64,000 nt of DNA from an uncultured Bacteroidota bacterium (GTDB lineage Bacteria; Bacteroidota; Bacteroidia; Chitinophagales; Chitinophagaceae): NCBI GenBank assembly GCA_903887005.1, contig CAISOH010000067.1:1-64000 (forward strand). The letters are read 5' to 3'. Within the stretch, counting starts at the first letter, position 1. Every line of letters begins with the position of its first letter. A model generated the notes under the pieces. It had not been told where the DNA came from, searched no databases, and worked only from the letters and a program-made list of their open reading frames with translations. This document shows positions 11,477-28,917 of this stretch, piece by piece. The position numbers and the translations under genes are program-made.

Positions 11477-11513
11477 CAGATGTTCCACACTTTTTTCAAG
11501 TGTGGAACATCTG
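11477..11513. repeat. Intergenic hairpin, family member 1
   Basis: CAGATGTTCCACACTT-ttttc-AAGTGTGGAACATCTG: 16-bp perfect stem, 5-nt loop. Confidence 0.85.
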
Positions 11514-22992: not shown

Positions 22993-24204
22993 ATGGATTT
23001 AGAAATACTCATATCACAAATCCAATCGCTTGATGGTGCCCTTAAACAGGAAGCCTGTAAAGCCGTTAACCGGATGCTTACCATTCGTAACTGGCTGATA
23101 GGGTATTATATTGTTGAATATGAGCAAAAAGGTGAAGACAGAGCAAAATATGGAGAGAATTTACTCAATACTTTGGCAGAAAAAATTAATATTAATGGAC
23201 TAGGCAGTAGAAACTTAAAATTGTTCAAACAATTTTATCTTTATTATCCTTCAATTGTGCAGACGGTGTCTGCACAATTGAAAAATGCATTTAACCCAAT
23301 TTATCAGACTACCGCTGACAAATTATTAAATTCAAAAATGTCAATTGTGCAGACAGTGTCTGCACAATTAGAAAATATTGAGAATCAATCAGTTGTAATT
23401 CATCAGACACTGTCTGACGAATTATCAAATAGTGATATGCAAATTGGGCAGACACCGTCTGCCTCTTCTTACGAAACAGAATTACAAGAAAAAATAATAA
23501 AAAGTCTTTCATTCTCGCACATCACTTTATTACTACCTATTGAAGACCCATTAAAAAGGACTTTCTATGCAGTCGAGGCAATTAAAGGTACCTGGAGTGT
23601 GAGAGAATTGAAAAGGCAGATAAATTCGCTGCTGTTTGAAAGGTGCGGCATGTCTAAAAAACCTGAACTATTACTTCAAAACCTGGATAAAAAATCAGAA
23701 AGGGCACTACAGGCATCTTTTGTAAAAGATATTTACACTTTTGAATTTTTAGGCTTGCGAACAAAGGATGCTGTAGAGGAAGATGACCTGGAAAGCGCTT
23801 TGCTGGATCATTTACAACAATTTCTTATTGAAATGGGGCATGGCTTTTGCCTGGAGGCAAGGCAAAAAAGAATATTGATAGGGGATGAATATTTTTTCAT
23901 AGATCTTGTTTTTTATCACCGGGTTTTGAAATGCCATGTATTGGTTGACTTAAAAATAGAAGGATTTAACCATCACAGTGCCGGGCAACTAAACACTTAT
24001 ATAAACTACTACAAGAAAGAAATACAACTTCCCGGCGATAATGCTCCGGTAGGCATTTTAATGGTTGCCGGTAAGAATGATGCATTGGTGGAATATGCCA
24101 CAGCCGGAATGGATGAACAATTATTTGTAAGAAAATATCTGCTCGAATTGCCGGATAAAAAGAAAATTGAAGCTTTTATAAAAAATGAAATGAAAAATCT
24201 ATAA
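22993..24204 (+). CDS. DUF1016 / PDDEXK nuclease domain-containing protein (YhcG-like)
   Basis: MLTIRNWLIGYYIVEYEQKGEDRAKYGENLL; LKRTFYAVEAIKGTWSVRELKRQINSLLFER; nuclease-like LIGDEYFFIDLVFYHRVLKCHVLVDLKI. Confidence 0.92.
   Translation: MDLEILISQIQSLDGALKQEACKAVNRMLTIRNWLIGYYIVEYEQKGEDRAKYGENLLNTLAEKININGLGSRNLKLFKQFYLYYPSIVQTVSAQLKNAFNPIYQTTADKLLNSKMSIVQTVSAQLENIENQSVVIHQTLSDELSNSDMQIGQTPSASSYETELQEKIIKSLSFSHITLLLPIEDPLKRTFYAVEAIKGTWSVRELKRQINSLLFERCGMSKKPELLLQNLDKKSERALQASFVKDIYTFEFLGLRTKDAVEEDDLESALLDHLQQFLIEMGHGFCLEARQKRILIGDEYFFIDLVFYHRVLKCHVLVDLKIEGFNHHSAGQLNTYINYYKKEIQLPGDNAPVGILMVAGKNDALVEYATAGMDEQLFVRKYLLELPDKKKIEAFIKNEMKNL
23250..23463. repeat. Five-unit in-frame palindromic repeat array inside the DUF1016 CDS
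   Basis: Hairpins at 23250-23282, 23298-23324, 23343-23369, 23397-23423 and 23447-23463; centres spaced 45, 45, 54, 45 bp; four of five share CAGAC-centre-GTCTG. Confidence 0.95.
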
Positions 24205-27397: not shown

Positions 27398-27919
27398 ATG
27401 CGCAAACTGAATATTATTCCGGGGCTTTTATGTACCTTGTTTTTTTCACATTGTACAGCAAGGCAAAATACTAAAGCTATGACAGAGCATAAAAATAATC
27501 TGCACTATTCCCGCACAGATACTACACATTTGCAGGTAAGCAATGCCGAGTGGAAAAAAATACTGTTTAAGGATGTATATGACATTGCCCGGGAGCGGGG
27601 AACGGAATATGCGTTTACCGGCAAGTACTGGAAAACAGATATCAAGGGCACTTATTATTGCGCGGTATGCGGTAACAAATTGTTCCGGTCAGGCGCCAAA
27701 TTTGCCAGCAGCTGCGGATGGCCCAGCTTTTTTGAAGCAGCAACTCCCGGGAGTGTGCGCTACCAGGATGATAATACGCATGGCATGGAACGTACAGAGG
27801 TGGTTTGCGGCAGGTGCGATTCACATCTCGGCCACGTATTTGACGATGGCCCGCCACCTACCCACCGCCGCTTCTGCATGAATTCTGCTGTGCTCGAATT
27901 TGAGCCGGATGAGAAATAG
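27398..27919 (+). CDS. msrB: Peptide-methionine (R)-S-oxide reductase, lipoprotein-like
   Basis: [63 protein letters not shown]; signal with FFSHC. Confidence 0.93.
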   Translation: MRKLNIIPGLLCTLFFSHCTARQNTKAMTEHKNNLHYSRTDTTHLQVSNAEWKKILFKDVYDIARERGTEYAFTGKYWKTDIKGTYYCAVCGNKLFRSGAKFASSCGWPSFFEAATPGSVRYQDDNTHGMERTEVVCGRCDSHLGHVFDDGPPPTHRRFCMNSAVLEFEPDEK

Positions 27920-28228
27920 AGTTATAGGCACTATTTGCTAATTGAGAGGACAAGTGTTGTCTCGTTCTTCCGTCAATGTTTTTTTTTGTTTTCCGTCAAC
28001 CGTTGACGCTGTGTCATGGTATTTTTAGTTTATTATTATTTTTATTAACGCTAATGAAAATAATTTTTAGAGGATAAACTTTGGCGTTATCCACTTTACC
28101 TTTGTTTTTAGAAAGATGGAACACAAAAAAATTGGTTTTATTGCTATTGATTTAAGACTGCAACCGGATTGGCTCCATGCAATTGCAGGATGATTCATGA
28201 ATATATAAAACATAAAAATTGCTACAAA

Positions 28229-28879
28229 ATGAGTGATGTACTTATTTATAAATCATCAGATAACCAAACACAGGTAGAAGTAAAGTTTGAGAACGAAACA
28301 GTTTGGCTTACACTAAACCAGATAGCGGATATCTTTGAACGGGATAAATCTGTAATATCAAGACATTTGAAAAATATTTTCGAAAGCGGTGAATTAGACC
28401 AAGCAGCAACTGTTGCAAAAAATGCAACAGTTCAGATTGAGGCTGGAAGGAAAATAACAAGAAATATTGAATATTACAATCTTGATGCCATACTATCGGT
28501 TGGTTACAGGGTCAATTCCAAACGGGGTACACAATTCCGCCAATGGGCTACACAGCGATTAAAAGAATATCTGGTAAAAGGTTATGCGCTCAATCAGCAA
28601 CGGCTGGAACAACTTAACCAGGTCGTAAATATCATTCAGCAGTCCGGGGGAACTATTGGCTTGCAGTTGACTGAATCAAAAGGGCTGCTTGATATTTTGA
28701 GCGGGTACACCCGCAGTTTTGTAATGCTCAACCGGTATGACAGCAAAAATCTGGAAACAGCGGGACTAACTGAAAATATTACCTATGAAATAAAATACGC
28801 TGAAGCGATAGCCACGATTCCCATCTCGGCCATGTATTTGACGATGGCCCGCCACCTACCCACCGTCGCTTCTGCATGA
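28229..28879 (+). CDS. RhuM-like (virulence RhuM family) protein, C-terminally truncated and fused to foreign sequence
   Basis: [56 protein letters not shown]; downstream residues [20 protein letters not shown] are an out-of-frame reading of msrB sequence. Confidence 0.85.
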
Positions 28880-28917
28880 ATTCTGCAGTGCTGGAATTTG
28901 AGCCGGATGAGAAGTAA
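28815..28917 (+). pseudogene. 3' remnant of a second msrB gene
   Basis: 103-nt segment matching 27817..27919 with 7 mismatches by eye; encodes ...[31 protein letters not shown] in the msrB frame. Confidence 0.9.

Follow-up and report, generated by a model that had tools for sequence, protein, structure and literature searches.

DUF1016 nucleases as putative readers of a palindromic site inside their own genes

Why should a gene for a nuclease carry a series of palindromes within its own reading frame? The question is raised by a DUF1016/YhcG-type gene in the window, i.e., the whole 64,000-nucleotide stretch of a Chitinophagaceae contig analysed here, where it is flanked by yicC upstream (end 22990) and gldH downstream (24294). 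Its product matches the Pfam models DUF1016_N (PF17761; 103.5 bits) and YhcG_C (PF06250; 165.9 bits), both above the curated cut-offs, in agreement with the DUF1016 nuclease recognized in an earlier note on this DNA, and PADLOC labels the gene as a member of the candidate defence family PDC-S02. That note had described five inverted repeats centred at 23266, 23311, 23356, 23410 and 23455, with spacings of 45, 45, 54 and 45 bp; all are present as described, in frame, with each centre at codon position 1, and the array, spanning 23250-23468, does lie between the N- and C-terminal domains. The arms are perfect in copies 1 and 3 (12-13 bp), have one mismatch in copy 4 and are degraded in copies 2 and 5. 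The antisense ORF at 23309-23512 also exists and reads similar peptides, but only as a by-product of the palindromes, since these are centred on codon position 1. The features are as follows, with protein columns numbered after ORF L037_1 and "word" denoting the variable bases of a palindrome arm:

22993..24204, + strand: DUF1016/YhcG-type gene, 403 aa (ORF list, Pfam, PADLOC)
23203..23244, + strand: putative DNA recognition helix, aa 71-84, GSRNLKLFKQFYLY, from co-variation with word bases 5-8 and helix H71-83 in the L150 model; R73 is column 102, K76 column 105 and L77 column 106
23253..23279, no strand: palindrome copy 1, AATTGTGCAGACGGTGTCTGCACAATT; perfect arms reach 23250-23282
23298..23324, no strand: palindrome copy 2, degraded, AATTTATCAGACTACCGCTGACAAATT
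23343..23369, no strand: palindrome copy 3, perfect, AATTGTGCAGACAGTGTCTGCACAATT
23397..23423, no strand: palindrome copy 4, AATTCATCAGACACTGTCTGACGAATT; T at word position 7, like the same-genus orthologue
23442..23468, no strand: palindrome copy 5, inner part only, GGCAGACACCGTCTGCC
23515..23517, + strand: S175 (column 127), predicted reader of word base 3 (S:A, T:G/T, G:C)
23596..23607, + strand: S202-V203-R204-E205 (columns 154-157), N-terminus of the third helix, predicted reader of word bases 2-4
23716..24162, + strand: PD-(D/E)XK nuclease domain (YhcG_C), NucS/EndoMS-like fold
23902..23955, + strand: catalytic motif D...(D/E)xK (GAT at 23902; GAC-TTA-AAA at 23947-23955)

An [IV].QT.SA repeat is visible in the peptide; hence, the repeat might exist at the protein level only, with the palindrome as its side effect. 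The five window copies, nevertheless, hold 52 paired positions; when the peptide was recoded synonymously 5,000 times, the mean was 28.8 and the highest count 40. To place this in the family, DUF1016 genes were drawn from 150 genomes of the window's family, GTDB contigs, IMG/VR, and plasmid, phage and E. coli records; viral contigs gave no match when scanned with the single window protein, although a profile scan did find DUF1016 genes. The main set of 183 non-redundant genes is mostly from Bacteroidota, with fewer sequences from other phyla, and includes Proteobacteria (E. coli yhcG among them), Actinobacteria, cyanobacteria and prophages. Of these 183 genes, 167 carry one or more palindromes with the centre at codon position 1, and under a stricter score 124/126 fall in this frame, at a density 10 times that of the flanking DNA. 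The family consensus is AATT-N7-CA-[C/G]-TG-N7-AATT, in which the N7 word, taken for each gene from its top-scoring palindrome, varies from gene to gene while its two arms still match (CAGAC/GTCTG, GAGAC/GTCTC, GGGAC/GTCCC, CGGAC/GTCCG, GAACGC/GCGTTC, TATCA/TGATA and others); thus, the peptides vary and the dyad symmetry is kept. Several genes outside the 167 have a decayed palindrome at the usual place, and in four DUF1016 genes the palindrome lies in another frame and another loop, implying that the DNA is kept and not the peptide.

A position chosen beforehand, namely the codon six ahead of a conserved W (W-6) in 40 short-linker genes, forms a mean of 10.2 of 12 pairs versus 5.3 under synonymous recoding, with p<0.01 in 85% of the genes. 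The arms of these genes also covary: positions 6-8 pair in 36-38 of the 40, as against the 11-16 expected with independent arms, and all four pair types occur. The earlier note had held that homologs sharing the peptide with no conserved DNA palindrome would speak against selection on the palindrome; the reverse is found, with peptides that differ and palindromicity that is conserved. The palindrome is, therefore, under selection at the DNA level. With both synonymous-recoding nulls exceeded (the window gene and codon W-6), and with the same symmetry found under different peptides and palindromes found in frame 1 too, a repeat of the peptide alone is refuted and retains practically no probability.

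The number of copies is less constrained. The suggestion of a length-variable linker holds insofar as copy number varies, the E. coli yhcG alleles having three in-gene palindromes (K-12), one (two alleles, with a 78-bp deletion) or two (another), but this is a secondary feature, explained by the palindromes occupying a loop tolerant of insertion. The linker of one DUF1016 gene (L045) has two copies that lack the central codon; the resulting palindrome (GTCAGAC-GTCTGAC) is even, and its half-site spacing is altered. Further, in five genes (L197, L166, L143, L182 and L123) a palindrome lies in the loop directly ahead of the recognition helix, which is thus palindrome-flanked on both sides in some members of the family.

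Selection on the nucleic acid might act on the transcript, with the repeat forming an mRNA hairpin for RNA autoregulation, and each copy could indeed form a 12-bp stem. An RNA stem would accept G.U pairs; yet the arm mismatches comprise 44 G.T as against 63 A.C. Since G.T is not favoured over A.C, duplex DNA is indicated rather than an mRNA hairpin, and the idea of an RNA target for the protein finds no backing. Also contrary to a hairpin, residues of the protein co-vary with the identity of the bases, beyond their mere pairing, so that this explanation is very improbable.

This co-variation speaks to the question of what the word is read by. Outside the palindrome itself, the column-base pairs with the highest mutual information are column 102 with base 7, 127 with base 3, 155 with base 3 and 105 with base 8. 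Kinship was controlled through 80 disjoint closest-relative pairs, i.e., with pairs and clusters rather than a full phylogenetic model, and under this control 2,416 tests rank 127-base 3 (p=2.6e-10), 105-base 8 (p=3.1e-8) and 102-base 7 (p=6.4e-7) highest, with 178-base 2, 156-base 2, 103-base 5 and 106-base 6 among the next-ranked. The varying residues include S/T/G127 for base 3 and K/R/E105 for base 8, and the pairings are chemically sensible: R102 goes with G7 in 64/66 cases and K102 with C7 in 13/14, E105 with C8 in 16/17, R155 with C3 in 20/20 and G127 with C3 in 18/18. These trends hold in viral and plasmid genes taken alone. In partial Mantel tests, word distance is related to the contact columns with r of -0.30 (0/500 permutations), as against -0.12 for the rest of the N-domain and -0.06 for the nuclease domain. 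When whole clusters are left out, the contact columns predict bases 3, 6, 7 and 8 better than random columns do, while bases 4, 5 and 9 are not well predicted from them. The earlier proposal of a DNA target for the protein thus gains strong support from the co-variation of protein and word, and a DUF1016 protein very probably reads a parS-like site in its own gene.

The predicted structure is consistent with such a reader. In AlphaFold models (pLDDT 84 for the whole protein and 87 for the N-domain), columns 102-106, 127 and 155-157 are placed at the N-termini of three helices, and the palindrome-encoded peptide forms the loop between the first and second of these. Foldseek with the N-domain returns mostly ParB/Noc/Spo0J chains, the matches being weak (E 0.2-3.5; probability up to 0.94; Noc/ParB on top at E 0.2). 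Pfam HTH_ParB matches 15 of 28 members, with a best E of 4.9e-5, and falls under the curated cut-off in the model sequence. Searched by sequence against the PDB, the whole protein gave no match, and an N-domain profile chiefly unrelated ones, with Spo0J at E 0.15. The N-domain thus appears to resemble the ParB DNA-binding HTH, in a likeness that is weak by any single test. The C-domain has a fold like that of the NucS/EndoMS nucleases, and the catalytic D and K are kept in all 165 of 165 aligned DUF1016 genes, the PD-(D/E)XK nuclease being intact in its catalytic residues. Taken together, DUF1016 proteins are in all likelihood ParB-HTH-like, site-specific DNA-binding nucleases whose site lies inside their own gene.

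Closely related genes offer natural experiments. In a genome of the same genus (G099), the orthologue at the same yicC-gldH locus has T102 and T7, where the window gene has R102 and G7; copy 4 of the window gene retains T7 despite its R102/G7. The common E. coli allele (3,795 matching genomes, K-12 included) combines K102/R105 with the word bases C7/G8, and a second allele (473 genomes) combines R102/W105 with G7/T8. In K-12 YhcG the two columns (K, R) fall in GFSAKNLRQM, and the gene's own palindrome is AATTCGCCAGACAATGTCTGGCGAATT. These two yhcG alleles differ nearly only across the recognition helix and the palindromes; within E. coli, helix and palindrome have been exchanged together, as one tract. 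Among paralogue pairs within single genomes, 0 of 50 share a word to within one base, where 0.8 were expected, so that this result is not significant.

Could the palindromes instead be a mobile element that enters ORFs harmlessly, as the earlier note had entertained, in the manner of Rickettsia palindromic elements or REPs? That the copies are repeated and in frame, and that some extragenic ones lie beside the gene, would fit. A search of the 5.96-Mb genome for the core CAGACNNNGTCTG gave five occurrences, four of them inside the window gene; the fifth (contig C290, L013), whose outer arms do not match, was judged to be due to chance. The strict consensus finds eight sites in this genome versus none for a control, two of them in the window gene and the others in DUF1016 remnants or in an hsdM-hsdS spacer. 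As they are confined to such places, the palindromes are better seen as cis companions of DUF1016 than as a dispersed repeat. Since, in addition, the word is private to each gene and matched to reader residues, the mobile-element idea is not sustained by these searches, which for E. coli comprised a BLAST with one word, and must be deemed highly unlikely.

Several observations from the same genome may be recorded here. DUF1016 N- or C-terminal fragments at four loci (L235, L237, L231 and L229) carry or adjoin near-perfect palindromes. In a type I R-M operon (C65, L232 1501-1640), the hsdM-hsdS spacer has three palindromes with a single word (CTCTCA...TGAGAG), and some homologous operons have a DUF1016 gene at this very position. 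In the window, other strong palindromes at 11495 and 39022 are without the DUF1016 consensus and are possibly terminators. Elsewhere in the window, a 102-nt direct repeat (94% identical; 27817-27918 and 28815-28916) corresponds to the 3' end of an msrB-like gene (27398-27919) and lies on both sides of a truncated RhuM-family ORF (28169-28879); the layout would fit an insertion of the RhuM gene that duplicated the msrB end.

Against this backdrop, we propose the following mode of action. DUF1016_N would be a ParB-type helix-turn-helix domain that reads AATT-N7-CA-S-TG-N7-AATT, presumably as a dimer, with the seven variable bases of each half-site contacted by residues at the start of three helices (columns 101-109, 127 and 154-157). 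Site and reader both fall in a stretch of ~100 codons and would therefore mutate, recombine and transfer together. By binding its own gene, the nuclease might limit its own expression and/or be anchored in cis, whatever promoter lies upstream, while its intact PD-(D/E)XK domain could be directed at other DNA, perhaps in a defence role. A site within the ORF would offer promoter-independent autoregulation or cis-anchoring to a gene that moves between plasmids, prophages and islands. Overall, we consider it probable, by a modest measure, that the palindrome serves its own gene's protein as a recognition site in duplex DNA, with such a role; that autoregulation or cis-anchoring is the actual purpose of the in-gene site is a tentative suggestion, quite possible yet short of probable. 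Autoregulation alone would leave unaccounted for the fast diversification of the word, the palindromes just 3' of the stop codon (L015, L103 and E. coli) and the one after gltD in K-12. Further, a protein that binds and is able to cut its own gene would need a brake.

These outlying palindromes bring up cleavage: the nuclease might, perhaps conditionally, cut its own palindromes, leading to gene conversion, cassette exchange, island deletion or spread of the gene. The active-site D and K are invariant, palindrome copy number ranges from 1 to 3 within E. coli, and recognition helix and palindrome are exchanged as a single tract. In K-12 (L218), yhcG-type palindromes at 2645 and 10983, after gltD and just after yhcG, bracket gltF-yhcA..yhcG; E. 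coli S5 (L223), without yhcG, has at this place one perfect palindrome between gltD and nanQ, at the segment junction. The S5 layout is, however, explicable by ordinary homologous recombination or as the ancestral state, and a consensus palindrome lies no more than 300 bp from the gene, on one side or the other, at a minority of DUF1016 loci, flanking palindromes being absent at most. Moreover, cutting one's own gene would carry a high cost, and no methylase that could protect it generally is seen, the window gene's neighbours being yicC and gldH. We regard cleavage as unlikely. The site could also be a self-tag on the DNA, on which an otherwise harmful nuclease is parked inactive until loss or degradation of the gene, through plasmid loss or phage attack, frees it. 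Such a tag would account for an in-ORF site inseparable from the gene, for gene-private words and for the joint conservation of nuclease and site, and it would suit the frequent plasmid, prophage and R-M contexts as well as the candidate defence label from PADLOC. Its stoichiometry is unfavourable, with one gene against many proteins, and E. coli strains without intact yhcG are common, making it distinctly unlikely. If true, it would mean plasmid or island addiction, or a means of sensing that phages are destroying host DNA, with diversifying words keeping co-resident copies orthogonal. Returning to the preferred reading, i.e., a recognition site for autoregulation or cis-anchoring, each gene appears to encode a DNA-binding nuclease plus the site that it recognizes, in a family with a member even in E. 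coli K-12. As the word is written in the gene itself, site and reader can be extracted from sequence alone for nearly every member, which provides, for a ParB-like domain, a protein-DNA recognition code from nature and, for candidate defence genes, predicted target sites.

How do these genes compare with known systems? The window gene is a plain member of the YhcG/DUF1016/COG4804/PDC-S02 nuclease family with an intact nuclease motif. Previous accounts give the YhcG family a helical N-terminal domain that matched nothing known, and assign it no function (PMC1189080); our search of the literature on the DUF1016/YhcG family and on intragenic operators met with no mention of the palindrome. A close parallel in parts is ParB/Noc/Spo0J with parS/NBS, which combine a palindromic site with an all-helical HTH domain that DUF1016_N appears to resemble, and in B. 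subtilis one parS site even lies inside spo0J. ParB/Noc, however, have a CTPase domain, which the window protein lacks (Pfam finds DUF1016_N and YhcG_C only), and a ParA partner, of which there is none beside the window gene (yicC, gldH); conversely, the HTH-like domain of DUF1016 is fused to a PD-(D/E)XK nuclease. ParB reads parS through helices alpha4, alpha6 and alpha8, and a few specificity residues suffice to switch the site (PMC7383237). The parS/NBS consensus is fixed, whereas the DUF1016 site, of ~27 bp, differs per gene and lies inside the ORF of its reader across phyla.

Other systems share single elements. NucS/EndoMS have the fold of the C-domain with a different N-terminal domain. 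In the TRD exchange of type I R-M systems a specificity segment is swapped as a cassette within a species, as in E. coli yhcG, but the DUF1016 cassette holds the reader together with its own target. Rickettsia palindromic elements and PARCELs (PMC2996958) likewise place palindromic repeats within ORFs; those of DUF1016, in contrast, are not dispersed and are apparently read by the protein of their own gene. Homing endonucleases have their target in the empty allele, where the gene interrupts it; the palindrome of DUF1016 is intact within the gene, and an intact one is also present at the empty E. coli S5 locus. In type II R-M systems a methyltransferase adjoins the nuclease; none does so at the window gene, and only some homologues lie in type I R-M operons. 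We know of no other system with a private, co-evolving recognition word in each gene's reading frame. What appears new is the arrangement, a private co-evolving word in the reader's own ORF, the parts (HTH, nuclease and palindromic site) each being of a known kind.
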